Positions 7,604 to 34,589 of a DNA stretch of 64,000 nucleotides are shown piece after piece. Source of the stretch: Mesodorylaimus sp. YZB2_4 (lineage: Eukaryota > Nematoda > Enoplea > Dorylaimida > Dorylaimidae). Both the position numbers and the translations under genes were made by a program. The stretch spans positions 1 to 64,000 of the forward strand of contig JASANH010000073.1 of the NCBI GenBank assembly GCA_030248295.1, in the 5' to 3' direction. The notes below the pieces were generated by a model. The model worked only from the letters and a program-made list of their open reading frames with translations, did not search any database and was not told the DNA's origin. Every line of letters starts with the position of its first letter. The stretch's first letter is position 1.

Positions 7604-7825
7604 TCAACCTGGCATCCTGTGAGACACCTTGGACAGATACCCAGTCTCCTCGTCGATGTCTCTGGCCTCCATTAACGGCACTGCCTCACGTTTGGCGAAA
7701 TATCTTGGTAAGTGGACACCCTCTGCCTCGGCCAGGCCAATTGTGCGGGTGATGGGTGGTTTGTGCAGTTGAGTGGAAACCAGACCAGTGCACAACACCA
7801 ACAAAATGACCACCGTTTTGAACAT
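7604..7825 (-). CDS. Small secreted KR pro-peptide, member 1
   Basis: Single exon, 73 aa. Signal peptide MFKTVVILLVLCTGLVST, then a short pro-segment QLHKPPITRTIGLAEAEGV, a dibasic KR site (AKR) at about residue 46, and a C-terminal peptide beginning EAVPLMEARD and ending HRMPG. It aligns along its whole length with four other genes in this window (21093, 24918, 27463, 34350); the closest is 34350-34589, which shares QLHKPPITRTIGL and the HRMPG end. The layout (signal, pro-part, KR, tail) is that of a secreted peptide precursor processed by a furin/PC-type protease. Function unknown: hormone, defence or secretory peptide are all possible. Confidence 0.85.
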   Translation of the reverse strand: MFKTVVILLVLCTGLVSTQLHKPPITRTIGLAEAEGVHLPRYFAKREAVPLMEARDIDEETGYLSKVSHRMPG

Positions 7826-7963
7826 TCTGGTTCAATAATTGAATATCGCTGAATTTCCTTCGCTTCGCTTGGATTTTTGGATATACCCTTTGACAGCCGT
7901 CGATGGAATTAATACTGCTCGAACATAAACATTTAAACTTGCTTGTTGAAACATCTGGTTTTC
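7826..7963 (-). promoter_or_regulatory. Promoter of KR pro-peptide member 1
   Basis: Reading toward the gene: CAGATGTTTCAACAAGCAAG at 7939-7962, a TATTAATT box (7907-7914), then GACGGCTGTCAAAGGGTATA and GAACCAGAATG at the start. The same blocks in the same order precede the member at 34350-34589. Confidence 0.7.
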
Positions 7964-8820
7964 AAAAACTTTAAAGAACCCCTAAAAATTTCTCTGCTGA
8001 TCAATCTAAAAATCCACATTTATAACCTGTTTTCTTTGAGTATATACATGCCCTCCACGTTACCGCATAGGCCGCGTGTACATTCCCAAAGAAAACAGAG
8101 TAGTTAGGGTTGACAAAAAGTTCATTGTATGTAGACTGCAATGTTTATCAGCAGGCAGGAGAAATTAGCCAATCAGACAATGCTTAAGAACGATTTTCAC
8201 CAAAACGATTCGACAAAAATTTTTGATTATTCGCACACTTTGCAGAATCTGCAATCCTGACATTTTTTATCAGAATCTGAGTTCATCGTTGACTTTCAGA
8301 TTACGTGATCTTTGTAGGGGGGGGGTGGGGGGGGGGGCCCCCCCCCATGAGGACACAACATCAGTCAATAACAACTTACGCAACTAGATGACTAGAAGTC
8401 AACCTGAAATTTTTTATGCAGCCAGTCAACAGGAGGAGCACGGCTGATTTGTGATAGGTCTTGCATGTGACTGGCCAGTTCAGGATTTGGTGATCTAACC
8501 CTGATCGGCTGTCTGGTCCTGAATCATGCGTGCAGCCAAAAAAGCTGTGATTAGCCTTTAGTAATTGGGTGACTGGCCAAGAATATAGTCGAAGGCAACT
8601 ACGTTATATTTTGATCACTCAAAAACTCGGTGATCCATCTCTCCCCCCCCCCCACCATTAGGATATCATTCAAAAATTTTGCGATCGATTCCTAAATAGG
8701 TCATCAATCAATTACATATGACACCTAATTAGTCCCTTATCAGATGATTAGCCCTCAAGTGACCTTCAGCTAAATAGCAGGTCCGGCGCAAAACTTGTAC
8801 ACCTTACGCCAAGGTCCAGT
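7964..8820. other. Intergenic with G/C-run hairpin
   Basis: No gene seen. 8317-8347 is a run of G (interrupted by one T) directly followed by a run of C, a self-complementary hairpin. A C run lies at 8641-8654. Confidence 0.6.
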
Positions 8821-9051
8821 CTAACCCTGGCGTTGATTTGATGTTGTTCCATGAAATCTTAACATATCTCGAAACTCAAAGAAGAATTCGTTCAGACTTT
8901 GGCGCTCTACAAAAAAAAATGGAGTAAGCTTCACGTTTTGTGAAATTAACGCAAGGCGTCTGAAGTCATCCTTTTTGTGACCACAGTAAACCTCAAAATC
9001 TTGAATTCCATCCACGAACTCTAGACGCAATGTGATGCGGTCATACTCCAC
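8821..9051 (-). CDS. Possible terminal exon, unknown protein
   Basis: An open frame of 76 codons ending TAG at 8821 reads VEYDRITLRLEFVDG...FFFEFRDMLRFHG, with alternating charged and hydrophobic residues like a real beta/alpha domain. It is preceded at 9052-9060 by an acceptor-like CAACTGTAG. A candidate donor (CCTG/GTAACT) lies about 66 bp upstream, but the exon before it could not be resolved. Family not recognised; could be a chance frame. Confidence 0.3.
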   Translation of the reverse strand: MEYDRITLRLEFVDGIQDFEVYCGHKKDDFRRLALISQNVKLTPFFFVERQSLNEFFFEFRDMLRFHGTTSNQRQG

Positions 9052-11367
9052 CTACAGTTGGTTGCGTACAAAATACGAGTTATCATGGGATCTCAGAGAA
9101 GTCATGTGTACAAGTTACCAGGTCCTAAAAGGCAATGATTCTAATGCCATCATGAAAGTTCATGGTTTATTGTAAGTGTCAAAACTTGCATTCGTGGTTG
9201 TAGTGGATTCATCGGTTAAATTTGGTAGCCACATAATAATTACATTTGTATTAGCATTTGATGTGCAGATAAAAATTGCTTTGCATTTGACTATGATGTG
9301 CAAATATGACCATTCTAAAGGTATCGAGGGAGCCTTGAGCGATTTTTTTTTCGCTAACCAGAACGGCTTCTCAGCCAAGCCGATACGATTGCATAACAAA
9401 CAATGAAAAAACAGAAGCGTGCACTCGAGGAGACAGCCCGTACGTCACTGAGTCAACAGATTATTCTGCGACAGAATCTTGTGTCGTGACACTATTTGCA
9501 AAGCAAATGTTGCTCCCTGGCGCAGGCACAAATCGGAGTCTATCTGATGCTTACACAAGCTTAGTCAGTTTTTCACCGTTTTTTTGTTTTGTAGCACTTT
9601 GCACCAATGTCAGCAGGAGTAGGCACCGTGTATTCAAAGGTTACATGAGTTGAATCTTGCATTTTTCCCAACCCTCCTTAGCTCGGTTGTTTCGACTTAT
9701 GGAAACTGGGTCACGACGCAATAAAAAACAAGGATTTTCTATGCTTTAAAATGACACACCTTTCTTGCACATGTTTGCAAACACGGAGTCAGTTGCCCTC
9801 CCTCTACCACTGTCTACCATTTACCGCTTCTCCTGGGTTTTGTTTCGGAAAATTTTCATGGTGATTTGATGGTGTCGAGTAAACACCAAGCGAGTACGTG
9901 ATCAGACGCAAAAAGTCTATAAAAGTCATGAAATCTTTCACCAGTGACAACCACGCCTTACTCATTCCCAGTACACACCGCAGTGCGGCGAGCTGAGTAA
10001 CCTTTGTACTCTAAAGTGTCTGTCTAGACACCGCCGTCAAGCTGTCGGCATTGTTGAGACTATGCACAATAGTCAACAGATAAAGCCTAGCCAGTTTTGG
10101 TACAATCTTACAATCAGGCCTGCTGTCTCGATGGAATTGAAACTGGAGACAGAAAAGTTTGTAACACCTAGACCTTTCACAGATCCGCATTCTATAAGCA
10201 CTTTTGGTAGGTGAAACTGAACGGCCATGACACAATAAAAATGCAGACACTCCCTCAATTAATGATACAACCCTCTGCATCAACCTTCAAACATCAACCT
10301 TCAAACATCAACCCCTCGGAATGATGTTTCAGGAATAGTCTTGCCGAGTTTTAGTCCCCACAATCTCTCCTGTGCCTGTCACGCTCGGTTGCGCCTCAAA
10401 GATGTGGATTCCTTCCTAACTATTGGCGTGTTGTCAAGAAGGGATGTGCGTGTTGGCTCGGCTAAACATTCTTGCCGAGGGGATTGCGAGGACACCTGTT
10501 CACAGTCAGTGTGCATACGTACCTCCTGAAAGGACAACGGTGTGCTCGCCTTGGCACACGTCCCAACGTCAGGCAAATTCAATGGGCGGGGCACGTGGGT
10601 GGCTAATTACTTATATAGCTCGCCAAGTTTTGCTAACCTACGTCATCGATGGATATTATATCCGCACTGTCCACGAGTTCACACGTAAGCCATAGATGGG
10701 GCAAAGTTTAGTCTTGAAATGACGCTATAGTGGAGGAGCAAGTGGCGCAAGACATTGCCCCTATCTGATCGAAATGTTGCTGCTATGCTTTGTGCTAAAA
10801 ATGGTCATCTAAAATCGACTGGACTGCTTTTGTGCCCATCGATATGCCCGATTGCAGTCTGCTTCATTGAAAATAAAGTCTAGGCCATGGACTGAGACCA
10901 TGAGTTGACCAAAAATAGAATGTGCAAGGAGTTCAACAGAGGGAAACCAGAATTCCCAAAAACATACAAAATAAAATCATTCATCATTTACAAATTCTAG
11001 ATTTCATTCACTTCACCCGTTCCATTCCCAAACGCGGCTTCCATGAATGCACAGATAAATATGATGCACAAAACTGAACTCCCCGTTCGAACATGGTTTG
11101 GAGATAGTGAGCAAATAAAGACACCAGATTTGAACCAAAAACGTTCCGAGAGAGCAACCAAAAACTATCTCTGCTAGCAGCTATCACCTTCCAGACCAGT
11201 CTGATCATTCGAAAAATAACAACTCGTCGAAACTGACCGACCAAAAGTGAATACAATATAATCACGGCTCGGTGATACTGTTCTTTGCTGTGTCCTCGAC
11301 ACAAAAGCGCAACTTTTTTACACTCATTTTGTCAAGGTGATTCAATTAAAAAAGTTCCAAGAAGAAT
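9052..11367. other. Intergenic, no supported gene
   Basis: TATA-like elements occur at 9927 (plus, CTATAAAAG) and about 10612 (minus, GCTATATAAG, followed by CACGTG), but no convincing coding exons follow either. The overlapping short frames between 10011 and 11304 lack splice support. Confidence 0.4.
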
Positions 11368-11879
11368 TTACGAATTTTTAAAATCTGCTGGTTCGAGTAC
11401 TCGAAGAGTAACTGAGCTCGAATCGTGTCCTAATATAACCTTGGCCACGTCCTTGTGGTTCATATGCATGACCGCCAGTTCGTTGACGCTTTCAACAATA
11501 TGACCCACTCGAAGACCCGCTTCGGCCGCCGGTCCCGTCGGATCGACTGTTTGTACGTAAGTGGGCCCCTCGCCACGAAGAACGAATCCATAACCAACGT
11601 TGTCACTCTCGATCTGAAACGCAACTTGTCCCCTTTTTGTTCAGAGAGAGCGAGAGCCACAACTTACCACAAGGGTCCTCGCATTGAACAGATCTTTAAA
11701 ATCATTCCATAAAGCTAAAATACACCATTTTAGCCATGTTAGGCAGACAGGGCCAAGAACCACTTACCAATGACAGCAGAAGTTGTATCAGGCGAATCCC
11801 CCACACTGTTCGTCCGTTGAAGTACAAGCACGGACGAGACTGGTGGTTCAGAAAAATATTCAGGGTTACTCTTCATCAT
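11368..11879 (-). CDS. Single-PDZ-domain protein
   Basis: Three exons on the minus strand: 11768-11879, 11668-11714, 11368-11613 (405 nt, 134 aa). All junctions are GT/AG and in phase, and an in-frame stop precedes the first ATG at 11879. Residues 1-45 (MMKSNPEYFSEPPVSSVLVL...) look disordered. From about residue 50 there is one PDZ domain: RTLVIESDNVGYGFVLRGEG with the GYGF carboxylate-binding loop, then VQTVDPTGPAAEAGLRVGH, IVESVNE and a final strand SSVTLRVLE. The protein ends seven residues later (ADFKNS region). PDZ domains bind C-terminal peptides of membrane proteins, so this is probably a small cytoplasmic adaptor. The PDZ type resembles those of RGS or RhoGEF proteins, but no second domain is present. 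Confidence 0.85.
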
Positions 11880-13719
11880 GGTCTCGATTTAGACCTAAGA
11901 CACTGCGGCCGATATGTCCTGGTCACGAAGCAATGTTCCCGCGCAACAGCCGTCGTCTCGAGTAGTTGGCTCGGTTTCAAATAGGGTAGGGGCTAACCAA
12001 CAACGTCGACTTAGGCAACGGCGATTGAGCCAAGTTAGGCGGAAGAGAGAAAACCTGCGTTGCCACCTGCGTCGATCACTAAAACGTCCAGACTATGTCG
12101 TTGGTCTGCTGAAAGAGTATTCTTTTTTCAAAAGGCTGCCCGTTTCGACGAGACGGCGCCGGCGTCGACTGCCTCGCCTCGTGTGTGTACGGCCTGTTTC
12201 AATAAACGCAGACGGCTGCCTCGTGGGCGACCAACAATAGCTAACGTTAGATGGCATAGCATGGACGGGCTGGGCCAGCAGCGGGCTAAAACCAGCGACA
12301 CCGGAAGCAAAATGCTAGGACCTGTTGCGCATAAATTTCCACCACCACGTGTGCTTTTGCCGGCGCAACGCCCCTCCAACTTCCCCTACCTAGGTAAGTC
12401 GTTGAAAACGAGCTGCTCCCATTTAAAAACGGGAAGGCAAATACCACTAGTAGTAGTAAAAATTGGTAACTTTCGAATAAAACTCCCCATCCCTCGCGAA
12501 ACAGGCAATGACTGCCTTTCAGTCCTGTGCATTCATAGCGTCGACGAACGGTCACATTTGACGCATGGACAGCTCGCAGACAGGTTGGCAAGTGGGCCAG
12601 TGTGGTCAGCACGGGGTGGAACCAGTTTGTAGCGGATTAAACTGACTTGTAGGACGTCAGCGAGTAAAGGTAAAGGAAAACAACTCGTGCCCCCTGGAAT
12701 GCCCGGTATGCATTTCGTCCCGGAGTCGGTTGACGTTTAAGAGTATCAAGGGTTTCGATAACATGCCTTATATACTAGATGGGATGCTGAGTTTGTTTTT
12801 GATGTGAGACACCATTCACTGCATCGAGATTGAGAGCGACAACCAAAACCAATGATGCCACTCTACTGATCGAGTCTAAACATAAAAAAACACGTTGCTT
12901 ATCTTCTTTGTGCTCACAGCTTGTTCAGCTGCCTTATAAGCCTAAATTATAGCAAAATATGATACATTTATTTGATGAACTAAAAAAGGTCGTCTCATTT
13001 CGTAAACGAATAAATATATTTTGCTGTCCACTGAGAATGCTGCCCCGTCTTTCCGTTTCGAAAACAAGATGATATTGGGTAGGCGTGCTTGCACAGCTGC
13101 GCTGTCGAGCCGGGTTGAAAAAGTTTGCAGGGTGGACCCAGGAGATCTCACGCAGTTGCCGGCACGATGATAAGATGCGCGAGGATAGTAGGTATATTGG
13201 AGTTTTGTGCGTTTTGTGTAGCAATGTCAGCAGGCATAGTGCAAACACAGTTAAACTTTAGTGATCTCAAGATAGCACTAGACGGTGTATCCGCTTTTTA
13301 TTGTCGAGGAAAGATCCATTCTCGCAGACATGTTGCCATAATGTTACTTTTACAATTTAGGTATGGTCTAGACAATGTATCGTCGTCGTCGGCCCAGCGT
13401 ACACTTTCAGAGCATGATAAGGACTGACTGTGAGTCAATAGCTTTCCCTTCGAAAACTCCACAAAAGCATGTTTGGTTATTGCGACGCACTTGTGCGAAA
13501 TAATCCACATCTGGGGGGGGGGGGGGGGAGGCATCGACTCAGTCACATGTTGTTTTTCTATCACACAGAGTGCGCAATAAGTAATCAGACTAAATTTCGC
13601 GCGAGATTGCGCTAAAACAAGTCTACTGCGGCAGTCGTATACATCTTTCGAATCTCCAGCTTTTTCTCCATAAGATAGGCGCATTTGAAAGCGAGCAGGT
13701 TGTCTTTTTCCTGATGAAA
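11880..13719. other. GC-richer intergenic region
   Basis: The first 700 bp are CpG-rich and may contain the promoter of the PDZ gene. A 190-codon plus-strand frame (12060-12632) contains a good donor (CCTAG/GTAAGTCG, about 12390) and an acceptor (GCGAAACAG, about 12503), but its product has no recognisable feature. A run of G occurs at 13513-13530. Confidence 0.4.
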
Positions 13720-14720
13720 AATGGGATTAAACACACCTGGTGCTCTTATTGGTCTGCATAGGCCCAGATTTTGGACAAGTGAAATTTTAAGAATGCTTGC
13801 AGCGCCGAAACGAACTGTATCTATTAAAATCAAACAGTTTGAGGAGATTAGGGACATCAAGCGCCGCCCAAGAATCGGTCGACCAATCGTAGCTAGCATG
13901 GTAAGAAATCAGGATATCATCCGAAAGAGGATCAGTCGGAATTGGATGTGATCAATGTCAAAATCGATTAGTATCAGAGGTGGATCAGTCCAAAAGATTG
14001 TTAAAGTCATCTTGGATACCACCTGTACCAGGTCTTGGAAGCTCATTGCCTCAACGATCTAGTGGAAGCTAATGGATTTATCAAAGCACAAAAATGAGGG
14101 GCCTCGTAGCTGCTGGCTGCCATTGAATAACTCTTTTCGCGAAGAAGAGAATTTTCACTGTTGATCAAGCCCATAACCATCAGAACGATAGATAATTGGT
14201 GCCAGCAGGTCAGAGAACTTCTGCAAACGTGGAATTTACGGAGGATTTTTTTTCCCTGTATTTGGAATGGTTTGGGTTGGAGTCAGCGCAACTGTCAAGA
14301 CCCTCGGTTTTTGTGAATCGAGGAGAGAGAATCGATGACAAAGTATACCGAGAACCAAGCTTAAGTCGATGCGTGGGCAGAAAATCACCTAGAACCTGCT
14401 CGTTGGACGTTTCAACAAGACCAAGCGTCTTCGCGAGGAGCTATAAAACACATTGGGCACCTGGCATGAGTTGCTTCCAGCAATGTGGGCAAAGATATCT
14501 GGGGTTCTAACTCGCCAGATTGAAATGAGTTCGACTACGCGATCTGGTCGATCTCGTAGCGAAAAGTCTGGTCTACAAGATAGGGTAGCGTCGAATCGTT
14601 CGAAATGCATTGTTGAAAGCTTGGAGCATAATAACCTATTAATTCCATCCAGCATTTGAATGCATGTATAAAAACTGATGGAGATCTTTTTGAACACTTG
14701 TTATTAGTTTGGAGTTGTCA
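13720..14720 (+). pseudogene. Decayed Tc1/mariner transposase
   Basis: Three separated pieces in different frames match Tc1/mariner order. At 13780-13951 is an HTH region (LAAPKRTVSIKIKQFEEI...RRPRIGRP...KRISRNWM). Near 14260-14320 is MVWVGVSATVKTLGF, the block around the second catalytic Asp. At about 14490-14560 is DIWGSNSPD, stop, NEFDYAIWS, the conserved SPDLNPxDYxxW block. Stops and shifts interrupt every piece, so it is dead. Confidence 0.75.
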
Positions 14721-14936
14721 AGGGTAGTCAGCTTGTGCTGTCCTTGTGATATGGATGTGGCGCCATTATTGTCCTGTGTGACAATGTTGTCTGCTAGTAA
14801 GCAGGTGTGCGTGATGTTGAGCGATAGTGGATGGAATTGGAATGGAAGGCGGTTGTCTCGCTATAAGTGGTGAATTGTGCCGCCAGTTAGAGCAAACGGG
14901 TACTTATTTACAAGAAGAAATAAAGAGATATGTTGG

Positions 14937-15290
14937 TGCCATTTTTCTTGGGTAAGTGTGCTTGTCTTACCAAGATTAAGTCTCCATACTTGGCCAGTGG
15001 CCGGCCTCGTGACCTGGTGGGTTGGGCGTCTGCCTCTCACGCCAGGTGCGCAGTTACGGGCGAGTGTTCGACTCGCGGGCCGGTAAATCATTTCGAGTAA
15101 AATGTGTCCCTTCACCCTAGCGTGCGCATAAGCGTTTGGTGATGTGGTAAAACATGAACATGAACATGAACATGTCATATGAGAGAGATGTCAGTGATGA
15201 GAGAGATGTTGGAGATTAGAGAGATGTCAGTGCCATTGTTTTTGTGTAAGTGTGCGTAGGTCTCACCTAGGTTGAGTCTCCATACTCGAT
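14937..15290 (+). repeat. Direct duplication around a SINE
   Basis: The stretch at 14937-14995 (GGGTAAGTGTGC, CTTACCAAGATTAAGTCTCC) recurs at 15231-15290 (GTGTAAGTGTGCG, TCACCTAGGTTGAGTCTCC). The SINE at 15000-15178 lies between the copies, with AGAGAGATGT repeats after it. Confidence 0.6.
15000..15178 (+). mobile_element. tRNA-derived SINE, A subfamily (fullest copy)
   Basis: The head has a tRNA-like A box (GACCTGGTGGGTTGGGCGTC) and B box (GTGTTCGACTC). The body is AATCATTTCGAGTAAAATG / CCCTTCACCC / GCGTTTGGTGATGTGG. The tail is AACATG repeated as CATGAACATGAACATG. Truncated relatives lie at 36955, 41078 and 58525. Confidence 0.8.
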
Positions 15291-15631
15291 CTACAGTAGC
15301 GTCACACATTTGTCCTCCCTTCAACTCATAACTTAATACTTTCTGTTTTCACAAAGCATAGGTCACAGAACACATACCTTATATTTGTATTCGAGACATG
15401 GTTTTATCAATTCTGCTAACCTCAGGCAAAGGCCTGAAGAACAAGCTCACAAGCCTTTACTGGGACAGTTGTAAAGCAAGGTTGCGAGGAGGACTTTATA
15501 GAAGTTGCCGTACAATACACTCGTCAAAACACGACGTGTCATACATGTTAAAAAGCTGCACAACCACAAACTACCCATGTGCTAAATTTCACTGACAGAG
15601 TTAGCAATGAGGGGCGACGTTCGTAGGGGGA

Positions 15632-18250: not shown

Positions 18251-18261
18251 CCTTGAAAAAC

Positions 18262-18390: not shown

Positions 18391-18584
18391 AACGCGGTAT
18401 CTTGATTATTCAATCATCTCACACACTTGACAGTATTTTCAAATGTGCAGCATCTGGCAGCTGCATTTACAAATCTATGGGGTATTTCCAGCTAGCGCTA
18501 TTTGAAATACACATCGACTATGCCAGTGCAAACAATGAACAATACCAAATCCAAATATAAAACAATTAAAGCTTACTCAAAACC

Positions 18585-19590
18585 TTATTTTTTTAAACCC
18601 AATTTGCGAGCGCTTTCGCTGACTTTTCCAGTCATTGTTTCTTTAGCACCTTTAATCATGCCCTCAACCTTTTCCATTGATAAGCGCCTACGACTGACAC
18701 CCGGTCGATCAGCCGTTTTCTCGCCGGCTCTGTGCTGATTACCCTCCCACACATTGCCCTCGGCACCCATGCGGCTGGCACCTTGCGAATCTTCGTACTT
18801 CTTTTCAATCTCTTGCTCTTTTTCCTCATAGGGCTCGAACGGGCGTTTCTGAGGGTCACGTGCGGATGCTCCTTGAAGTCCTGTCGTAGTTTTTATAGTT
18901 TCTTTTAAATTCTGAGCTTTGTCTTTGACCACGTCGGCCATGTGCTTTGCTTTTTCTCTGATCGAGCCAGACAACTTGCTGATATCACCTGCTTGGGTCT
19001 AAAAAGTGTCATATTTCCCCAGATGCATTAGTAGAACAAAATAATCTTTGATAAGTGATAGAAGACATAGGTCGAGTTTAACCCTCCCTCTATTCCCCGT
19101 GTGTGAGGAAAGTTCCAAAAGGCTGTGAAACTGTCAACGGAAAAACTCCAGGAAAGTCTTCAGGATTTTGATTTTGCGCCAAGAAATTTCGGACACCCAC
19201 CGCTGCTCTAAGCGATAAATTATCCTGACGACTTCAAACTTGACGAGAAACTACATTTCCAGCCTCTTTCCACTGGCCTAACTAGAAATTCAAGTTCGAA
19301 ATTATCTCTAATAGCAAGATTTCACAGCAATTTGAAACGGTTTTTTTTGAAAACATTTTTCAGGCAGGCGTCACCAGAATAGAGGGGTTGTAACACAAGC
19401 AAAAGTTATGAATCTTCTGCTTAGACTGCAGTATGGGTCAAACACTTACCGATGGTCGATCCTTGTACTTGTCAGTGTGTTGTAATCGATAACCAGCTGC
19501 CGCAGTATTCTCAAAAGTTTGAGTTAATCTGATCATGTTCATTTGTCGCATAGCAACACGGGCCGCTGGTAAAGCTCTGTTAAATTCCAT
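18585..19590 (-). CDS. LEA-like protein with probable mitochondrial presequence
   Basis: Two exons, 19450-19590 and 18585-18998, with a 451-bp intron (TCG/GTAAGT ... TTTTTAG/ACC); 184 aa. The first exon gives MEFNRALPAARVAMRQMNMI followed by RLTQTFENTAAAGYRLQ: rich in Arg, Ala and Met, with no acidic residue after position 2 for about 25 residues, fitting a mitochondrial targeting peptide. The rest is highly hydrophilic, Lys/Glu/Ala-rich and Cys-free: SIREKAKHMADVVKDKAQNL, KETIKTTTGLQG, and the C-terminal helix KVEGMIKGAKETMTGKVSES. This repeated amphipathic A/K/E/T pattern is that of group 3 LEA proteins, desiccation-tolerance chaperones known in tardigrades, rotifers, brine shrimp and nematodes. 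No strict 11-mer register is kept, so LEA-like is safer than LEA. Confidence 0.65.
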
Positions 19591-20960: not shown

Positions 20961-21092
20961 TTTTCAGAATCAGATGTTTAAAAAAAAAGAAGGGCTGATT
21001 TTTTAATTCGCAATATAAATGCCCTCAACGGCTGCCAGTAAGCGTATCCAGAAAAGAAAGGCGACTGAAAATATTTGAAATTTCGAACCACA
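20961..21092 (+). promoter_or_regulatory. Promoter of KR pro-peptide member 2
   Basis: TTTTCAGAATCAGATGTTTA at 20961-20980 is the shared upstream motif (with its CAGATG E-box). A TATAAAT box at 21014-21020 lies 79 bp before the ATG. CAACGGCTGCC and GTATCCAGAAAAG downstream of the box also match the other members. Confidence 0.75.
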
Positions 21093-21308
21093 ATGTTCAA
21101 ATCGGTGTCTATCTTGCTCGTTCTCTGCATCAGCCTAGTTTCGACTTTTCAACTACTGAAGAAACCATCGATGACCCCGTTGGAAATGAGCAACAGCGAA
21201 CAAGCCATCCTCGCAAAACGCCACGCTTTGCCGTTTCAAGACACCGGAGACGATTTTTCTGAGGATATGGAAGGTCCAGATAAGATGACACGGTACCGAC
21301 ATTGGTAG
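21093..21308 (+). CDS. Small secreted KR pro-peptide, member 2
   Basis: Single exon, 71 aa, and the only plus-strand member. The start at 21093 (MFKSVSILLVLCISLVSTF) was chosen because all other members begin MFK at this point. The pro-part is QLLKKPSMTPLEMSNSEQAI, the dibasic site is LAKR, and the tail begins HALPFQDTGDD and ends RYRHW. The KRxAxPF pattern is conserved with the other four, whereas the tail is the most diverged. It is flanked by its own copy of the family promoter. Confidence 0.8.
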   Translation: MFKSVSILLVLCISLVSTFQLLKKPSMTPLEMSNSEQAILAKRHALPFQDTGDDFSEDMEGPDKMTRYRHW

Positions 21309-23254: not shown

Positions 23255-24371
23255 ATGAATTGCACAACCACTGAAGTCCCACCGACATCATGGTTCGCAC
23301 CAAATGCATATCATAACTCGAGCGACTGCTGGCCATGGTTACACGTGGATGAAACCACATTCAATGAACTAAAATTGAACTTTTTAAAAAAAATTGAGTT
23401 TTTTAATTTTGTTGATCACATAATTCTTTTGTTATTTGTACCAATCGGAATTATTGGCTCTTTCTGCACTTGTATTGCAGTTTGGCGAAAAGCAATCGTC
23501 AAAAAAGAGCGTTTCTACATATATTTACATGTTTGTGATAAGTGCGCTAGACCTTTTGTACAGTTTAGGTATCGGCCTCTATGAACCTTTCAAGAATATT
23601 TTCAAATATTCTTACAGTTTGTGTGTGTTTCAGCTCATCGTAGGATGTCTGAGCTTAGGCTGGTCTTTGGGGGCTGATATGTGCACACTTATGTTAGCTA
23701 TCGAACGCTATGTCGCCATTTGCACACCTTTAGCTTACGATCCACAAAAGAAAAAAATATTCTCACTTCTGACTTGTGTTCTTGCATTCTTTGGCATTGC
23801 TGCTCGTTTTATCGTTAGCGTTTTGACATTTTGGGTGGTCGAAGTAGGGGCTGATCAAACTGGTTCCATGGTCTATAGCTTTAACTACACTAAACATGTC
23901 AGCGCGTTGTTGTTTTCTTGGTTCCTTTTTTTCACGAATACTGTTTTACCGTTTTTACTACTTTTTTTCATGCTCTTCTTTTCTCTGCATATTGTATATA
24001 CAGTAGCCAAACGACATCTGTCGCAAGTGCACGCCAACTCGTCGGCTGCACAGAAACAGAATGTGCAACAACAGTCCTCAGCCATGTCGCGTCTTTTGCT
24101 CGTTCTGGTGGTTTTATTTACTTTTTTTCAAACTTCGTTCTGCGTATTAGCTTTGCTCGCATATTTTGATAGGAATCATATCGTAGAATACACAAGCACT
24201 TTTGATGAAATTCTGCATTTTATTGAAGCTAAATACGTGGTCAACGCTGCGTTTTGTATTGAGAATGCGATGGAGTGCAGCACACGATCGCTTGGCTTTT
24301 TTCTATATTTCATGTTGTCGAAATCTTTTCGCGACCAGTTCAGAATTGCTATAGGCTTAAAAAAAGATTGA
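23255..24371 (+). CDS. Rhodopsin-family GPCR with one frameshift
   Basis: Starts MNCTTTEVPPTSW with N-glycosylation sites NCT and NSS. TM1 is around DHIILLLFVPIGIIGSFCTC. TM2 is FVISALDLLYSLGIG, with the conserved LxxxD form. TM3 ends in ERY (the DRY motif): CTLMLAIERYVAICTPLAYD. TM6 (LLLVLVVLFTFFQTSFCVL) is preceded by a loop with a Gln-rich stretch. TM7 ends SLGFFLYFMLSKSFRDQF, in the place of NPxxY and helix 8. It is most like invertebrate peptide receptors (FMRFamide-receptor type). The reading frame moves by one base between TM1 and TM2. The A6 run at 23501-23506 is the obvious site: with five A the frame is continuous and no other lesion is seen. No splice signals explain it. Assembly error, polymorphism or a young pseudogene are possible. 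Confidence 0.8.
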
Positions 24372-24917: not shown

Positions 24918-25142
24918 TCATTTGATGTATCTTTCCCGCTCGACGGGAACGCGGAAGCCGTCATCGAGATTTCTCGGCTGCCTTAATGGCATAGCCTCAC
25001 GTTTCGAGAAATGGCCTTGTCCACTGATACCTTCGCCTTTTCCCAGGGTCTTTTCGTGGGTCATCGATGGATCCTTCATCAGTTTAAAAGTGGAAACAAG
25101 ACCAGTGCAGAAGACGAGGAAAATTGTCGCTACTTTGAACAT
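24918..25142 (-). CDS. Small secreted KR pro-peptide, member 3
   Basis: Single exon, 74 aa. Signal peptide MFKVATIFLVFCTGLVST, pro-part FKLMKDPSMTHEKTLGKGEG, dibasic site FSKR, then EAMPLRQPRNLDDGFRVPV and a basic end RERYIK. It shares TLGKxEGxxGQ with member 4 (27463-27684). Additional RPRN/RERY basic spots in the tail could be secondary cleavage sites. Confidence 0.85.
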   Translation of the reverse strand: MFKVATIFLVFCTGLVSTFKLMKDPSMTHEKTLGKGEGISGQGHFSKREAMPLRQPRNLDDGFRVPVERERYIK

Positions 25143-25270
25143 TTTAGTTCAAAAATTCAAATCTATAACTGAATTTCCTTTGATTTCTGGACATGCTCCC
25201 TGTTTGGCCGCTTGGAATATTTATACTGCTTCAAATTAAAATAATCTAACTTGCTTGTTGGAACAACTGA
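25143..25270 (-). promoter_or_regulatory. Promoter of KR pro-peptide member 3
   Basis: Toward the gene: CAGTTGTTCCAACAAGCAAG (25250-25270), TATAAATATT (25216-25225; 83 bp before the ATG), GTCCAGAAATC and GGAAATTCAG. Matches the family, except that the E-box core is CAGTTG instead of CAGATG. Confidence 0.75.
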
Positions 25271-25464
25271 AAAATGGGAGGTGTTTAAAAGTTTTACTTT
25301 CAATAAAGGTAAACTGGACGCAGCTGCACTGCGAAAAACACATTTATCGCCGATCATGACGATGACACTCATGGCGGAGGAAAGGCGGAGAGTAAAAGAA
25401 AAGACTGAACCGTGGGCGTGGAACAAAACTGGAGAACGTGGCTGATGGCAGCGAGGCAGTGAGT

Positions 25465-25540
25465 CTGAAACATCAACCTTAGGGGTTGAGCTTCCCTGCC
25501 AGGGGAGATCGATTATTCTCTCCCACTCGGCATGGCTAAC
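25465..25540 (+). repeat. Interspersed hairpin repeat R
   Basis: GAAACATCAACCTTAGGGGT TGAG, CTGCCAGGGGAG and TCGATTATTCTCTCCCACTC in the family order. Confidence 0.65.
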
Positions 25541-25619
25541 AGTCGCGCAATGCACTGGAAGCCAGCCTTTGGCCCGATAATTGTCTTCGCTGACTCTTTG
25601 CTGCTGCAGAAGAATAGTG

Positions 25620-26580: not shown

Positions 26581-27462
26581 GGTGACCGTGACTGACAAAT
26601 GGTCATTCAATCGCGCTTGCCTGACAAATATCTTGTGACAGTGATTCGCCTTTTTTGCGTCAACTGGGTATACAGTATCTGTCTGTGCACTGTGCTCACA
26701 ATCAGTGCTGTCAATGATGTACAAGCACTGTAAAACCGTCTTGATGCCGTTGTCACGACTGTGGTGGTGGCATTGGAAAATATTGCATTCGTGATCATGA
26801 TTCGTGATTTTATCGTCTAGTATTTCGCTTTTGTTTTTGTTGTCTATACTCCTGAAGGCGCATCTGCTGCTTCGTGTACAGTAGATGATACTTCTACTGT
26901 CTATTTCGCATTGCTATTTTAATTCTTATCCAAACAAATGACTGTTCACCCGACGGATAAGCGAATTCATCTCATCTGATCAGACGTGTAACCAGTCTAG
27001 GCAAGTCTTGCGACTACCTACGGCTTGAACATCAGCCCAAGGGGTTGACGTCTGCCAGCCAGGGGAGCGTATCGATTACTCTCTCCCACTCGCAATAGCC
27101 TACCAGGCATGAGGGTTACACATGAGTCTGATACAGTCATAATCGAAAACGGGAATGGATTGGAATAACATTTGCCTCACACACTCGAGTTTCTGAAGGA
27201 CATTCATCAGTTTGTACAAGCATAGAAGATGGAATAAGGTGCCATACCCTTTGTAGGGAAGGTCTGGTTTGGGGTGCGCTTCTCGAAGAGACATAATCTA
27301 ATTAAGATCTTAGGTGATTATTGAAGACGACATGTTTCGTCAGAACAACGCATATGCAAAGTTTTTTAAACTTCACTTTCGATTTTATTGCAAATTCACC
27401 CCACTCTGACAATCAAGTTTATTACTTCCACGAAATCCACCTGCTCCCACTGCTCGACGGGG
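26581..27462. other. Intergenic, one R copy
   Basis: No supported gene. Repeat R (plus) occupies about 27000-27105: AGTCTTGCGACT, GAACATCAGCCC, GGGGTTGACG, CAGCCAGGGGAG. Confidence 0.5.
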
Positions 27463-27684
27463 TCATTCGACTGTTCTTAGTCTTTCATCGGGCACTGGAA
27501 TACCATAAATACCCCTACGCTGTCTGAATGGCACAACCCCACGTTTTGTCAAATACGTTTGTCCACTGGCACCTTCGCTCTTTCCCAGGGTCAGTGCCTG
27601 GCTCATGGCCGGTTTCTTTAGAAGTTGATCCGTAGAAGCCAGACTGATGCAGAGCACAAGCAAAATAGTCACTGTTTTGAACAT
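27463..27684 (-). CDS. Small secreted KR pro-peptide, member 4
   Basis: Single exon, 73 aa. Signal peptide MFKTVTILLVLCISLAST, pro-part DQLLKKPAMSQALTLGKSEG, dibasic site LTKR, then GVVPFRQRRGIYGIPVPDER. A second dibasic RR within the tail could release a shorter C-terminal peptide starting GIYGIPVPD. The 5' flank matches the other members. Confidence 0.85.
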   Translation of the reverse strand: MFKTVTILLVLCISLASTDQLLKKPAMSQALTLGKSEGASGQTYLTKRGVVPFRQRRGIYGIPVPDERLRTVE

Positions 27685-27812
27685 TCTGGTTCAATAATTG
27701 AAATCGCTGAATCGCTGTGCAATTCTAAACATGCCCTGCTGAAGCCAGAGTGGCCATTTAAACTGCCTGGAATAATCATTTAATCTTGTCTATTGAAACA
27801 TCTGATTTGCAA
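27685..27812 (-). promoter_or_regulatory. Promoter of KR pro-peptide member 4
   Basis: Toward the gene: GCAAATCAGATGTTTCAATA (27784-27810), TTTAAAT (27756-27762; 78 bp before the ATG), then AATTGAACCAGAATG at the start codon. Confidence 0.7.
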
Positions 27813-28145
27813 AAACACAGGAAAAAAATGCAATAAGCATCCGTTAGCAATCAAACAAACTAGTCTGAGTGAACCCCCGATTTTTATTAGTTCTGAAACA
27901 TGATCATGCTTGCAATTTCTATCGTCAAACAAACGAGTCTGGTCTGGACTCGAATAAAGTAAATTCATAAATGGGTTTTTTGGATACATCAGATTGCTTG
28001 GTGCATTTGCATTAAAAAATGTCACCCGCTTACTTTAGCGAATAGGCGCTGAGATTTTCTTCTGTCACTTTTTTGCGTACAAGCAGGCAGACGATTCGCA
28101 AGGTGGTTTGGGCTGAGTCAAAGTGAATGGAATGCCGCTTCCAGG

Positions 28146-29692
28146 TAGCGTTGATACAGTTTTGGAGAAAAGATTTAGCTTCAGTTAAGTTAAGTGAATC
28201 TCAGAATAGATTTAGTTCCAGTTACAGTTAACTGGATGTCAAATGATTCAGTTAATTGAATTTAACTGAATGATTCAGTTTTCCCTTGAAAAGCATTTCG
28301 CATCAAGATGTAAAGACTTGACGAGAACAATCTTCACTTTTCTTCATTCAAATAACTATTTTTCCGCATTTAAGACTTTGAACAGCTCACAAGGCGCAGT
28401 AAAGACCAAAGTCAACACCAGAGGGTCCTTTACGAACACAGCGATGCACGACCATGTGTCAACAGTCCACCCACCAACAAATTTGCGGACAGACCAAGTA
28501 CCTGAACCTTGTAACCGTTCTAATTCGAACTTGCCACACCTCATGATTGTAATTTGTTTTGGTCCAAAAGAAAGCTCTGCGCAAAATATTTAGCTCGTCA
28601 GGCCAACTACTCAGCAGAGGTCAGCGGCCGAAGTCCTGCAAATTTTTGGAAACATTCTCGCTTCGTCGGGTCTATTGAGCAAAAAGATTCAGAAACAGAT
28701 GGCTGGAAGACGGAACCAAAGCCCATAACCTGAACAGCGGGTTCAGAAGAGCCCTGCGAGGCTTTCTCAACTTTCTGTCGCCTCGAAACACACGCATTCA
28801 AGAAACCTGCAAGATTTTGGGAGCTGATTGCTGCTGACCAGCTGGCCATAAGGGCCAAATATTTTCAGTAGAGCTTTCTTCCACACCAGGAACTTGGAAA
28901 TCATCGAATGAGCATGCCGAGTTTAACTTACTGGTTGGCAAAGCTTTCTAAGATAAAAAAGGTGCAACTTTAAAATGTTTGTAATAAAATGATTGAAATC
29001 GAAGAAGCCCTTTTTCATATACTGTAGGTACTTTCATTTTACTTTAATTTATACCGACTGCTTTTCAACATGGACCTCGCCCAGCTTATAACTCTTTCCA
29101 CTCAGCGCTAGCCTGCAGGAAATGATGAAGCACTACAATATTCGTGAAGATTTTGCAACTTCTCTACATTTGGACCGAAATTCGAGTGGATCGATTTTTT
29201 CACGATAACTGGCGTTTTAAAAGGAGATGGGTAGGCCGGTTTCTGGAGGCGAGTTTCTGGTACCAAAAATGCAGGCAGGTAAACAATCTTTACGAGATCA
29301 GATAACACGTTTATGTCAACACATTCATTGTTCATCAAATGAAGTGTGCGCCAAGTGCGGGTGCGAGCGGAGGGAAGAACAGGCTTGAAGACACATCTTC
29401 TTGAACGTCGGTATCCGACAATGCTTCACGGAAGGTGTCCAAGGTTGCTCGCAGGAATTCGTCTAGCTGCGTTTCGTTTTTCTTTGAGATCTGCACGAAT
29501 ATCCGCAAACAGATTACTAATTTTCAAAAGCTAGTAGCTCGAAAACTGAATTTAACTGATTCTAAAAAGATTCAGTTACAGTTAAATTCAGTTTCGGCGA
29601 GGAGATTCACTTTCAGTTAAACTTGACTGAATTAAAAAAAATCAGTCAACTGATAGGTTCAGTTTCAGTTTTAGTCAACTGTAACAACGCTA
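28146..29692. mobile_element. Non-autonomous hAT-like element, family C
   Basis: 1547 bp. Perfect 8-bp duplication CTTCCAGG at 28138-28145 and 29693-29700. Ends TAGCGTTGATACAGTT and AACTGTAACAACGCTA. About 130-150 bp at each end is packed with variants of TTCAGTTAACTGA. Internal frames (28270-28593, 28607-28858, 29108-29338) are short and unrecognised; no transposase seen. Confidence 0.85.
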
Positions 29693-29949
29693 CTTCCAGG
29701 ATATAACCATAAAAGTCAGCGGACAATTTTAAAATGCGACTTTTGGACATAACTCACACCTAAATAGTGCATATCAAAGAGAATTCACACCGCTACGGGT
29801 CGGCTCGATGGCTCATGGACCTAGTGCTCAAATCCAGGATAGCTCTATCTGCATCAGACATAATTCAAAATTTAGACGAAAATATTGATGAAATATGCCA
29901 GGAGCCGACTCGATGAGACAAAGTTGCTATGTGCCATGTTTATGTTTCA

Positions 29950-30310
29950 GCACCAAAACTGCAGCACCAAAACTGCAGCACCAAAACTGCAGTACCAAGA
30001 CTGCAGCACCAAAACTGCAGCACCAAAACTGCAGCACCAAAACTGCAGTACCAAGACTGCAGCACCAAAACTGCAGCACCAAAACTGCAGCACCAAAACT
30101 GCAGCACCAAAACTGCAGCACCAAAACTGCAGCACCAAAACTGCAGCACCAAAACTGCAGTACCAAGACTGCAGCACCAAAACTGCAGCACCAAAACTGC
30201 AGCACCAAAACTGCAGCACCAAAACTGCAGCACCAAAACTGCAGCACCAAAACTGCAGCACCAAAACTGCAGCACCAAAACTGCAGCACCAAAACTGCAG
30301 CACCAAAACT
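29950..30310. repeat. 14-bp minisatellite
   Basis: About 26 head-to-tail units of GCAGCACCAAAACT. A variant GCAGTACCAAGACT occurs at 29990, 30046 and 30158, spaced 4 and 8 units apart. Since 14 is not a multiple of 3 and no stop arises in any register, all six frames are open through it; the resulting long frames are artefacts. Confidence 0.95.
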
Positions 30311-31292
30311 GTTTCAGCACCAAAACCAAAACTGCATTTTTTGCCAAATATCAGTCAGCATTAAAGTTGAAAATTGGCTTACGCTATACTCCACAGGAAA
30401 AGTATGTCAGACTCAGACGGCAAAAAGGCGCCTCTCATTCTGCATATATGTTCACTGTGCGTGTACACGACTGCAATGTGCTATTGCCTGCACAGTGTGG
30501 GCCAAGGGGAGAATGTATCGCGGCTGGATCGGATCATGCGAAATACTTGTAATCTTTCTGAAAAATCAGTAGAGCACCAACTTTTTTTGAAAGGCCGCTC
30601 CCCAAGATAAACACGCATTCTGATCAGGTGCCATGGCACAAGCAGCGCCCCACTCAAGGCCCCATCATACTGGGGAAATTTGTTGGGAATCGATTTTGGA
30701 AAGGCAATGTAATGGAGTGCCCTAAAATCAAGCGGTACTGCTCTACATAAGTGGACTGAAGCGATGAGGACATCGCATGCTGGACCAGCTTCACTCAAGC
30801 AGTTTGTAGGTTGAAAAAAGAAATCATCTTCAGTTGATCTCGTTTTATAAAAACATTCTGTTACATTTTTAAACGCCCCTCGTAGTGCATTTTGCAAGCT
30901 GATAAAGTAAAGAAGTTCCGTACTGCTCACAAATGACTGACCATAACTTTAATGTTAAACGGATATTTCCACTTAGTTTTACTCCTCACTAATATTTCAG
31001 CCGTCCGACTCCAAACTATTTGCGAAATCTGAGTCATTCATATTTTCTCTGGTCTCTAATAACAATAATGGCAAGATGACTCGCAACTCTAATTATAAGA
31101 AAAAAGCAGAAGATAGAACATTGTTTATCTCACTCACTGCACAGAGTGGTGTGAAAAATGGTCAGTTGATTGCAAGCGCTTATTACAAACACCGTTTGCT
31201 TAGAATTTCGGATCAGATAGCTCAGAATGGATCTAGATTTTTGGGCCAGCCATGAATAAGTGACTGAAAGCGGTGGGACAAAAACTTCGAAA
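30311..31292. other. Intergenic, no supported gene
   Basis: A 149-codon minus-strand frame (30481-30930) is open and protein-like in composition, but carries no motif I recognise and has no splice support. Confidence 0.4.
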
Positions 31293-31410
31293 AAACCTGG
31301 GCAAGTCTCGCGACTTTGTCTGCAGATGAAACATCAACCCGATGGGTTGACGTTTTTCAGCCAGGGAGGATAAATTCTATCGCTCTCGCCATTATCCGCT
31401 CCGTTCGCCG
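31293..31410 (+). repeat. Interspersed hairpin repeat R
   Basis: Reference copy: AGTCTCGCGACTTTGTCTGC, GAAACATCAACCCGATGGGT, TGACGTTTTTCAGCCAGGGA, CTATCGCTCTCGCCATTATC. Its last 80 bp are repeated exactly, inverted, at about 31500-31580. Confidence 0.8.
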
Positions 31411-31499
31411 TGGGTTACTACAATACGCTTCATGCGCTCGTATGACAACCATACATATTGTAGGTACAGCGCATATCAATAATATCGATGCGAAAAGTT

Positions 31500-31695
31500 G
31501 AAGCGGATAATGGCGAGAGCGATAGAATTTATCCTCCCTGGCTGAAAAACGTCAACCCATCGGGTTGATGTTTCATCTGGCCATCGGGTTGATGTTTCAT
31601 CTGGACCATGGCGAGAGGAAGAGAATTGATCTCCGCTGGCTGGGAAACGCCACCCGTCGGGTTGATGTTTCATCCGCAGACATAGTCGCGAGACT
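31500..31695 (-). repeat. Interspersed hairpin repeat R, compound copy
   Basis: Inverted perfect copy of 31323-31402, then a partial tandem (CATCGGGTTGATGTTTCATC twice), then a second more diverged copy ending TAGTCGCGAGACTTCCC. Confidence 0.8.
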
Positions 31696-31723
31696 TCCCT
31701 AATTCCAGTCGCAGTTTTTCACT

Positions 31724-31838
31724 CTAAATTCTCTTCACTTGCCACTTTGAACCTTTCTGTTTCTCATCCCGTGTTTCAAAAGGTCGTTGTCAGTTCTCGT
31801 CCTCGAAGTCTTCAAAAAGAATTGAATTTTTTGTGGGA
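31724..31838 (-). pseudogene. Duplicated 3' fragment of acetyltransferase gene
   Basis: Nearly identical to 32553-32663, the last 37 codons of the GNAT gene at 32553-33212. The duplication includes the R repeat just downstream (31606-31710 versus 32433-32552). The match stops abruptly at GAATTTTTTGTG. Confidence 0.85.
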
Positions 31839-32432
31839 GTAATCATACTGCATCAAATGGGAGTAATCATACTACAATCCACCTATTAGCGGCTTCACTG
31901 AGGAAAGTTTCTTCTAGCCTGCAATACCACCAACACCATATGAAGCATTCAAGGTATTTTTTCCTGATCCCATGCTTGGCTAATCGGATATTGGACAATC
32001 GGATATCAGATCAGATCGAATCGAAAGAAATGATCACGTATTCGAATTGCTTTCACGAATTTTGTAACTCGCAATAGTAAGTAGTGCTGCTGCTTCACAA
32101 GGTTCTTCTTGGAGTGAGTTTCTTGTTCTGACAGTGAATAAATTATACCCAGGAGTGTCTGTAACATGCAAGAATAGGCGGCAGGGCCCATCCTTGAGTG
32201 CGCAAAGTCCTACTATAATGGCTTGTCCGCTTTGACGCAATGACCAGTATACTAGTAATTATTACTATCGATTGCACTGATTAGGGGCTTGAAAAAAACA
32301 TTGACTCTCATAACTACTGGTCCCATATCACTAGGAAATCAGCATAAAACTGAAATTTTTCTGCTATAAGGGGTCTTGCACAGTTGGGGGTCCACCTCCC
32401 CTTAAAAAGAATAGGCGCAGCAACTTTTCGGA
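31839..32432. other. Intergenic, no supported gene
   Basis: Between the duplicated fragment and the R copy downstream of the GNAT gene. A GGGAGTAATCATACT short direct repeat is at 31835-31870. Otherwise nothing seen. Confidence 0.5.
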
Positions 32433-32530
32433 CCATGGCGGGAGGGAGAGAATTGATCTCCCCTGGCTGGGAAACGCCACCCGTCGGGTTGATGTTTCAT
32501 CCGCAGACATAGTCGCGAGACTTCCCTTAT
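32433..32530 (-). repeat. Interspersed hairpin repeat R
   Basis: CTCCCCTGGCTGGGAAACGC, CCGTCGGGTTGATGTTTCAT and TAGTCGCGAGACTTCCC, abutting the 3' end of the GNAT gene. Confidence 0.75.
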
Positions 32531-32552
32531 TCCAGTCGCCGTTTTTTTCACT

Positions 32553-33212
32553 CTAAATTCTCTTCACTTGCCACTTTGAGCCTTTCTGTTTCTCATCCCG
32601 TATTTCAAAAGGTCGTTGTCCGTTCTCGTCCTTCAAATCTTCAAAAAGAATTGAATTTTTTGTGACGAATCCTAATTTTTCAAAAACTCTTTGCGACATC
32701 CAATTTGATGCAACCACACTGCAATATCCGCATCCAAAGTCTCGTCCAACTCGAATATTCTCCTTGCATAACTCTGCAGCCAATCCTCGTCCTCCATAAT
32801 CGGGGTGGACAGCGAGGGCGGCGAACTGGAGCAGTTTCTGGCACAACTGGCCTTGCTCATCGACAAATACTCGGGCCCAGTCCTTGGTCAGGAGGTCCTC
32901 GATAGTCCTCACATGACCTGGTGGAATAAAATCATTTATTGATTCCCCGGTCCTAAAACTGTCCAAATTCAAAATTCTAGATAATCGAAACCCGATAACT
33001 TCAAGTTTTTTGTTCACTGCAACGTGTGAGTGAGGGAATTTCAGACACTCGTCAACCAATTTTTCCCAACCGGCCTTGGCATCTCGCCATCGCACGTTCA
33101 AAGCCACTCGTACGGGCTCCCATTTGATATAAACTCGTTCTGCCAACGATAATATCCCCTCTCGATGAGAAGATGTGGCGATCAAGATTGTGACAGAATC
33201 TTCTCCGCTCAT
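32553..33212 (-). CDS. GNAT N-acetyltransferase, arylalkylamine type, copy 1
   Basis: Single exon, 219 aa. GNAT fold order is visible: N-terminal AERVYIKWEPVRVALN (the EP motif typical of invertebrate AANAT-like enzymes), central VIGFRLSRILNLDSF, acetyl-CoA-binding motif A LAVHPDYGGRGLAAEL, and motif B VASNWMSQRVFEKLGFVTKN. Such enzymes move acetyl from acetyl-CoA to aryl-alkylamines (dopamine, serotonin, octopamine) in cuticle formation and amine turnover; the substrate here is not provable from sequence. It is the paralog of 38472-39137, with a decayed relative at 35090-35469 and a duplicated 3' fragment at 31724-31838. Confidence 0.9.
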   Translation of the reverse strand: MSGEDSVTILIATSSHREGILSLAERVYIKWEPVRVALNVRWRDAKAGWEKLVDECLKFPHSHVAVNKKLEVIGFRLSRILNLDSFRTGESINDFIPPGHVRTIEDLLTKDWARVFVDEQGQLCQKLLQFAALAVHPDYGGRGLAAELCKENIRVGRDFGCGYCSVVASNWMSQRVFEKLGFVTKNSILFEDLKDENGQRPFEIRDEKQKGSKWQVKRI

Positions 33213-34349
33213 CGAATCTGAGGGGGCGCTCTTTTAGCAAAGACACCAGGGAAGTCTGAGTTTGGAGAAAACTAAGCAGGCTGACAATTTAAACGGCTTG
33301 GCTTAGTGGAATTTAAACCAAGTAAACATCAGTCAGTGCAAAGTGTCACCGGCAGTGGCTTATCTCCGTTTCGGCCACTCAATGCGACTTAATAGGGCTG
33401 GCTGACGATAAGCTGGAGTACCTCGCGCCACGATGATTTTGAAGAGAATGTTCTGGTTTTTTGAAACCTCGCATTATTTTGATAAATTCTGTGCAGATTC
33501 TAGCTGACTTTTGGCACATGAGCCATTTCCAAGCAAGTTCGCGCTTACTATCAGCCTGGAGAGGCTGTCATCCTTGCAATTAGCTGGCGCAGTCAAAGTG
33601 AGAACATTTTTTAAAAATTTTTCGAAAAACCCACAAAAAATTTTCGTGCGCTGCTAGCTGACACTCTCCCCCCCCCCCCCCAACAATCATGTGAAGGGGT
33701 TCAGCCAGCGACTTGTAGCAGTTAGAACCTCATCCTGCCAGTGTTACTGTTCGGCTAGTCGCGATTCAGCCAGCACTTCTTTATGGCCAGTTCGTGAGAG
33801 GGAATGTTTAAAGTTTTCATGTCATGTCATGCTTTATCCATAGCCAAGCACCATACAGCGCACTCGAGGGCTAAGGAACACATATATTTGACAATGATTT
33901 TGTACCGAGGCGGGAGTCGAAACCTGCCCTCTTAGTGCGGATCTAGCGTGAGAGGCAGACGCCTCAACCCGCTAGACCACGACCACGTTTTTTGGCATGC
34001 CCGAAACTGATATAGTACGACTGGTCAACAATGGTCAAACTTGCGACAGCAATTATCAAGAACTAAAAGCTTGGGTGATTTTGCAGAAGCGTCAGATTGT
34101 TACTGATTCAGTTATCAGTCATCGCGATTCCCAAAAGTCACAATACAGTGCCAGTGTAGTTGTGCAGTGTCTCCTGCTTCTTTTTTCTCATCTCAGATAC
34201 CACGCAGATGAATTCGTTTTTTCAATCATATTCTATCGCTTTCGCCTCCAATAACTTCGCCATACCTAAACATTATTCATCCACTTTTTTATCACTGCCT
34301 TTCTAAAAACTGATCTTGACATCGAGCGGGTGGGTTGAAACCCCAGGCC
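33213..34349. other. Intergenic with SINE
   Basis: No supported gene. C run at 33667-33681 and SINE at 33815-33987. Short frame 33997-34254 unsupported. Confidence 0.5.
33815..33987 (-). mobile_element. tRNA-derived SINE, B subfamily (fullest copy)
   Basis: On the minus strand: head GTGGTCTAGCGGGTTGAGGC, GTCTGCCTCTCACGC, B box GGTTTCGACTCCC; body AATCATTGTCAAATATATG, CCTCGAGTGCGCTGTATGG, GCTTGGCTATGG; tail of ATGACATGAC type. Confidence 0.8.
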
Positions 34350-34589
34350 TCAACCTGGCATCCTATGTGCCAAATTTGGATAATACTCGTAGGGATACCC
34401 AGCATGGTCGCCGATACGACTACCTCCGGACTCTCCGAATGGCACAGCCTCCCGTTTGGCGAGGTAGGCTGGTCCGTAGACACCTTCGGCCTCGCCCAGG
34501 CCAATTGTGCGGGTGATAGGTGGTTTGTGCAGTTGAGTGGAAACAAGACCAATGCACAGCACCAACAAAATGACCACCGTTTTGAACAT
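34350..34589 (-). CDS. Small secreted KR pro-peptide, member 5
   Basis: Single exon, 79 aa. Signal peptide MFKTVVILLVLCIGLVST, pro-part QLHKPPITRTIGLGEAEGVY, dibasic site LAKR, then EAVPFGESGGSRIGDHAGY and an aromatic stretch PYEYYPNLAHRMPG. Closest to member 1 (same pro-part and HRMPG end), but its tail is longer and Tyr-rich. The terminal Gly could in principle support C-terminal amidation. Confidence 0.85.
   Translation of the reverse strand: MFKTVVILLVLCIGLVSTQLHKPPITRTIGLGEAEGVYGPAYLAKREAVPFGESGGSRIGDHAGYPYEYYPNLAHRMPG

Follow-up and report, generated by a model that had tools for sequence, protein, structure and literature searches.

A question raised by this locus is whether five very small open reading frames dispersed along it belong to a single family and, if so, which part of their products is the active one. 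The window, i.e. the whole 64,000-base stretch analysed here (contig C124, bases 1-64000; the assembly comprises 145 Mb in 1067 contigs), contains these frames at 7604-7825 (minus strand; 73 amino acids, MPG tail), 21093-21308 (plus strand; 71 amino acids, RYRHW tail, with AATAAA 88 nt past the stop), 24918-25142 (minus strand; 74 amino acids, RERYIK tail), 27463-27684 (minus strand; 73 amino acids, RTVE tail) and 34350-34589 (minus strand; 79 amino acids, a Tyr-rich tail with an MPG end). All five are uninterrupted and of the 71-79 residues given in the initial annotation, and all five show the layout described there—a signal peptide, a short pro-part, one dibasic KR and a divergent tail—with KR invariant in the full-length alignment. 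With the 34350 protein as query, a search of its own genome recovered the other four at E values of 9.1e-24, 3.4e-10, 2.2e-6 and 3.0e-5, which excludes chance likeness. Two details of the original description have to be loosened, however: the motif KRxAxPF is exact in only two of the five proteins (21093, 34350), whereas KR-x-[AV]-x-P-[FL] fits all of them, and the near-identical signal and pro consensus holds more loosely for the 24918 protein (MFKVATIFLVFC.., LMKDPSMT).

Nor is the family confined to the five members first proposed. Two own-genome searches each yielded the same 12 loci on three contigs, and two more, with other members as queries, returned 10 and 11 of these and no others. 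Besides the five window genes, C124 carries a sixth at 91209-91433; C220 has two loci, at 31842-32096 (stop included) and 36570, and C347 has four, at 54880, 59010, 56802 and 10406. Eight of the 12 are intact and have KR, a ninth is open but lacks it (C220:36570, in which ER replaces KR and the end is different and longer), and three, i.e. the C347 copies other than 54880, are broken by frameshifts or stops. Twelve alignment columns, K45 and R46 included, are invariant among the eight intact members, which form group i (7604, 34350, 91209; LHKPPIT pro-part, HRMPG tail), group ii (C347:54880, C220:31842; the same LHKPPIT pro-part, VQRHRR..IEIA tail) and group iii (21093, 24918, 27463; LLKKPxM-like pro-part). 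The MPG ending, initially assigned to a single gene, is thus common to three, and the C220 and C347 members have a basic-aromatic stretch (RHRRYGWGPRR, RHRRWAW).

The genes also resemble each other upstream. In all nine open genes a TATA-like box lies 78-87 nt before the ATG, with an E-box, CAGNTG, 42-45 nt upstream of the box, although these patterns were fixed only after the alignment had been viewed and some genes have extra matches elsewhere. When up to three mismatches are allowed, the block ATCAGNTGTTTCAACAAGCAAG occurs 14 times genome-wide, including nine occurrences in front of family loci, none of which is the 21093 gene, and the reversed pattern occurs once. In the window, the shared proximal promoters comprise those of the 24918 gene (25143-25275, minus strand; E-box CAGTTG at -127, TATAAAT at -83), the 27463 gene (27685-27810, minus strand; E-box at -120, TTTAAAT at -78) and the 34350 gene (34590-34730, minus strand; E-box at -122, TATAAAT at -79), as well as that of the 7604 gene (7826-7985, minus strand; E-box CAGATG at -132, TTAATT at -87), whereas the promoter of the 21093 gene (20970-21092, plus strand; E-box at -122, TATAAAT at -79) is clearly alike by alignment but too divergent for the pattern. 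Uninterrupted frames with a shared promoter block directly upstream suggest that the genes consist of single exons, as had been proposed, and a poly(A)-like signal is found within 300 nt past the stop in five of the nine open genes.

At the protein level, each of the nine open genes encodes a hydrophobic start stretch (KD 2.75-3.51) with small residues at -3/-1, and eight of the nine have KR, i.e. the generic features of a neuropeptide precursor, signal and dibasic site, are present as judged by hydropathy and the -3/-1 rule. The tails of the eight intact members are devoid of cysteine; three of them end in HRMPG, six have x-P after KR, and in the five window members the tail starts with x-A/V-x-P. 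For the eight-member alignment, AlphaFold2 predicted a helix at residues 2-20 only, i.e. the signal helix, with a mean pLDDT of 56.9 overall and of 45-52 in the 10-residue blocks beyond it; the tails are thus without a predicted fold.

Do the segments before and after KR evolve differently? This was examined in four pairs that were picked for alignable tails and share genes, and hence are not independent. Nonsynonymous change per site amounted to 0.02-0.10 in signal plus pro versus 0.26-0.30 in the tail, i.e. the tail was 2.9-15 times faster (p = 1.6e-7, 2.6e-3, 2.5e-3 and 8.9e-6), which rejects, for each of these pairs, the idea that all segments evolve alike. The constant front and fast tail of the initial annotation are therefore borne out by both alignment and segment rates. 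The further proposal of a bioactive precursor under diversification is upheld for architecture and tail rate but not for positive selection, since nonsynonymous and synonymous rates in the tail did not differ significantly in any of the four pairs (p = 0.061, 0.25, 0.17 and 0.58); N was below S in signal plus pro alone (p = 0.0048-0.058). In the pair C347:54880/C220:31842 the synonymous rates of the two segments are similar (0.14 and 0.20, p = 0.71) and the nonsynonymous rate is up 6.8-fold. The pair 34350/91209 differs from the other three in that its tail has a significantly raised synonymous rate as well (0.55 versus 0.16, p = 0.0052), and part of the contrast therefore reflects divergence of the DNA itself; the tail may be relaxed or drifting at this level. 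An omega of 0.37-0.55 in the tails of three MPG-tail pairs points to some constraint on these tails.

Comparison of groups i and ii hints at a mosaic. Signal plus pro is 87-95% identical at the DNA level and the promoter 70-75%, and the tails (z 0.3-2.2) and 3' flanks (z 1.1-3.0) come near to shuffled sequence. The C220/C347 genes are set apart from those on C124 by 9 of 14 informative sites in the promoter, none of five in signal plus pro, six of nine in the tail and 10 of 25 in the 3' flank, the test for a mosaic being weak (Fisher p = 0.053). Such a front block fits homogenization by gene conversion or else very strong constraint.

We therefore consider it rather probable, though far from certain, that these genes represent a lineage-specific family of secreted prepropeptides, in which a cut at KR would yield a variable, linear peptide alongside a constant one, the former being the diversifying product. 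What we infer from the sequences about secretion, KR cleavage, trimming, amidation, cell type and tail activity would fit together as follows. The signal peptide (approximately residues 1-18) would route the chain into the secretory pathway, where a furin/PC-type convertase would cut after the single KR. The N-terminal product of this cut would be constant and 23-28 residues long, the C-terminal one variable, linear, cysteine-free and 25-38 residues long. The common short E-box/TATA promoter could turn the genes on together, the simplest case being a single type of secretory or gland cell. Duplication, both tandem and dispersed, combined with homogenization or strong constraint of the front, would keep the latter constant while the tails diversify. 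Further trimming may occur, as the x-A/V-x-P tail start of the window members has the dipeptide form removed by dipeptidyl aminopeptidases, and the terminal Gly of the MPG tails could be an amidation signal; neither the dipeptide ladder nor the Gly amounts to more than a hint of later trimming, and removal by dipeptidases would not apply to every member, because the two intact ones on C220 and C347 have no x-P dipeptide. Among the points against the prepropeptide reading as a whole are the similar N and S rates of the tail and the loss of KR or the frame at four of the 12 loci.

Alternatively, the conserved pro-part itself (e.g. QLHKPPITRTIGLGEAEGVYGPAYLA, with an N-terminal Gln able to cyclize and KR at its end) might be active in the manner of a hormone or neuropeptide, with the tail being a free-running C-terminal spacer. 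There is a minority chance of this, and it would account for the front being both the sole segment in which N falls below S in the four pairs and the one so nearly identical between groups on different contigs; a precedent is provided by the I2 and I4 conotoxin superfamilies, which are described as having the mature peptide right after the signal and the pro-part at the C-terminus (PMC4278219). On the other hand, the pro-part of the 21093, 24918 and 27463 proteins itself differs much, and the motifs kept in several tails, i.e. the HRMPG end and x-P after KR, would not be needed in a free spacer. It is unlikely that the products serve as secreted defence (antimicrobial) peptides or are seminal/accessory-gland peptides, instead of being signals or venom-like secretions: fast tails, tandem clusters and the basic-aromatic stretch of the C220 and C347 members would suit such roles, but net tail charge, which lies between -5 and +2, is below zero in six of eight members, and this is unusual among cationic antimicrobials. 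Least probable of all is a young, relaxed family heading for loss, with a functionless tail behind a front kept alike by gene conversion. The three broken loci, the one without KR, the indistinguishable N and S of the tail and its raised synonymous rate in one of four pairs would fit this, but all six C124 genes have kept frame, KR, promoter and start context, and N is below S in signal plus pro.

The unexpected part is the linkage of these peptide genes with orphan receptors. Between two of the window genes, and 553 bases from that at 24918, lies an orphan rhodopsin-type G-protein-coupled receptor (GPCR) gene (23255-24371, plus strand), whose frame is broken once near 23520. It belongs to an expanded subfamily; counted by hand, no fewer than 39 loci, spread over 15 contigs, reach an identity of 50% (110 of 310 candidates having been scored), and most of the subfamily's long copies have uninterrupted frames. 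Upstream of the window copy, CAGGTG is found 41 nt before TATAAA, near the spacing in the peptide genes, and the mean z of this region against the family promoters is -0.2. Eighteen of the at least 39 copies lie on C124 (eight), C220 (eight) and C347 (two), which together amount to 560,552 bases, 0.39% of the assembly; peptide genes were found on these three contigs only, all of which carry the receptor subfamily. The distance from a peptide locus to the nearest receptor copy, weaker copies included, is 0.55-60 kb; seven of the 12 loci have such a copy no farther than 16 kb away, and for the two C220 genes the distance is 55-60 kb. With contig sizes partly interpolated, the chance of such three-out-of-three linkage is approximately 3e-5 for independent contigs and approximately 0.03 should they form one region.

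Duplication of the whole region was rejected as the cause, as its acetyltransferase neighbours do not show the same pattern: close relatives of the neighbouring acetyltransferase were not among the matches on C220 or C347. A DEG/ENaC channel subfamily is found on C124, C347, C126 and mainly C50, and because it also has a C347 copy, passive common descent of parts of the region may still explain the linkage. A promoter common to peptides and receptors was likewise rejected, since, for six GPCR genes, the 250 nt of upstream sequence did not align with the eight family promoters (mean local-alignment z of -0.2 to 1.0, best single value 3.7, versus a mean of 15.1 for the region upstream of 21093 as a control). 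The only profile match of the receptor was to a trace-amine receptor, a weak one at E 3e-4; at what we take to be position 3.32, counted back by hand from the ERY/ERF motif, four sequences have Thr, Thr, Ala and Ala, and the absence of Asp there makes an amine ligand less likely. Three copies, one of them with a stop, gave omega values of 0.12-0.39, and in these copies dN was higher outside than inside the membrane (regions set by eye), but since dS was likewise higher, the receptors show no trace of diversifying selection.

Could the peptides be ligands for these co-clustered receptors, e.g. as individual or sexual signals, with diversifying tails and duplicated receptors evolving side by side, much as in linked pheromone-receptor loci, but in an animal? 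We regard this as quite improbable. Basidiomycete pheromone/receptor (P/R) mating loci involve lipidated pheromones and Ste3-type receptors. Much as here, small peptide precursors and GPCR genes are reported to share a locus there (PMC8305134), but these loci are fungal, whereas here the genes are those of an animal and the resemblance is one of physical linkage alone. Nevertheless, the physical mixing of peptide and orphan receptor genes provides a short list of candidate ligand-receptor pairs.

The family itself is apparently undescribed. In agreement with the initial annotation, no described family was recognized in the libraries searched (Pfam, NCBIfam, PDB and a protein collection). Pfam gave no match for any of the eight members; a sub-threshold hit of one of the eight to the bacterial LrgA model of NCBIfam (E 0.055) and a PDB match to MerP (E 0.27) were taken as chance. 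Neither one member nor the eight-member alignment found a homologue in the protein collection, which seems poor in animal genes; this says little about animals, because the ordinary acetyltransferase of the window gave only four relatives there, all metagenomic. A search of the literature on tardigrade neuropeptides and receptors and on linked peptide-receptor genes, made by subject rather than species name and hence a weak guide, turned up no description of this family.

With which known systems can it then be compared? Generic neuropeptide precursors have a signal, a dibasic site and possibly a C-terminal Gly for amidation, and the present precursors share all three features (the Gly in the MPG tails), but match no described family in the searches made, and it is the released C-terminal peptide that would vary most. 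In prepromelittin, x-A dipeptides precede the mature peptide. Similarly, x-P dipeptides stand before the presumed mature peptide in the Ibin/Mibin peptides of insects (PMC12882233). The likeness lies in these dipeptides, but in our family they follow an internal KR rather than the signal cut, and the two intact members without x-P depart from the scheme.

Most conotoxin superfamilies of cone snails have a cysteine framework in the mature part, and amphibian-skin precursors also combine a constant front with diversified tails. A search of Pfam (all eight members), PDB and the protein collection, i.e. general rather than conotoxin-specific libraries, found no match that would place the family in a conotoxin superfamily by its signal and pro sequences. 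Conotoxin superfamilies are described as being defined by similar signal and propeptide regions (PMC4278219), and conotoxin genes have been ranked among the most rapidly evolving known (PMC3823881). The architecture is nevertheless of a known kind, best likened to that of conotoxin precursors: both have a constant front and a fast tail (here in all four chosen pairs, p = 1.6e-7 to 2.6e-3), whereas the tails of this family, for which no sequence relation to conotoxins was found, are short, linear and cysteine-free. What the family would add is thus a conotoxin-like split into constant front and variable tail, realized with peptides that are free of cysteine and predicted to be unfolded.

The expanded subfamily of orphan rhodopsin-type receptors is represented on all three contigs that carry the predicted secreted KR prepropeptide genes, with copies at 67931-69052, 82094-83215, 121951-123075 and 129847-130962 on C124 (the contig of the window, JASANH010000073.1), within 91661-152364 on C220, and at 8292-9407 and 83306-84418 on C347, and in most copies of this array the reading frame is uninterrupted. 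Three of the C124 copies share an identical protein stretch reaching from approximately TM2 to the start of TM4. This local identity suggests gene conversion among the receptors as well, a process that is one of two candidate explanations, next to very strong constraint, for the constant signal-plus-pro block of the peptide genes.

A different GPCR is present at approximately 105-110 kb of C124 in two nearly identical copies of opposite orientation, i.e. a recent inverted duplication. Three small contigs, C614, C888 and C908, carry GPCR pieces whose scores and spacing agree exactly or almost exactly; the likely explanation is that the assembly includes either alternative haplotypes or duplicates of recent origin.

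The E-box/TATA-like promoter block common to the open peptide genes has a copy with two mismatches at C5:801501-801522, distant from every known family member.

The window itself also contains two minisatellites, one of 27 copies of a 14-bp unit (29948-30326; three open frames on the + strand) and one of 40 copies of a 9-bp unit (48042-48403). Its other protein genes include two uninterrupted GNAT acetyltransferase genes (32553-33212 and 38472-39137) with 45% likeness to each other; two further stretches, 31727-31834 and 35108-35326, are GNAT fragments. A charged, hydrophilic, LEA-like protein of 118 aa (18585-18941) had no match in a PDB search, and Pfam returned only LTI65/LTI78, below threshold (E 0.06). 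Finally, a DEG/ENaC (ASC) channel is encoded in one open frame at 55493-56752 and has about seven relatives with at least 50% identity on contig C50.
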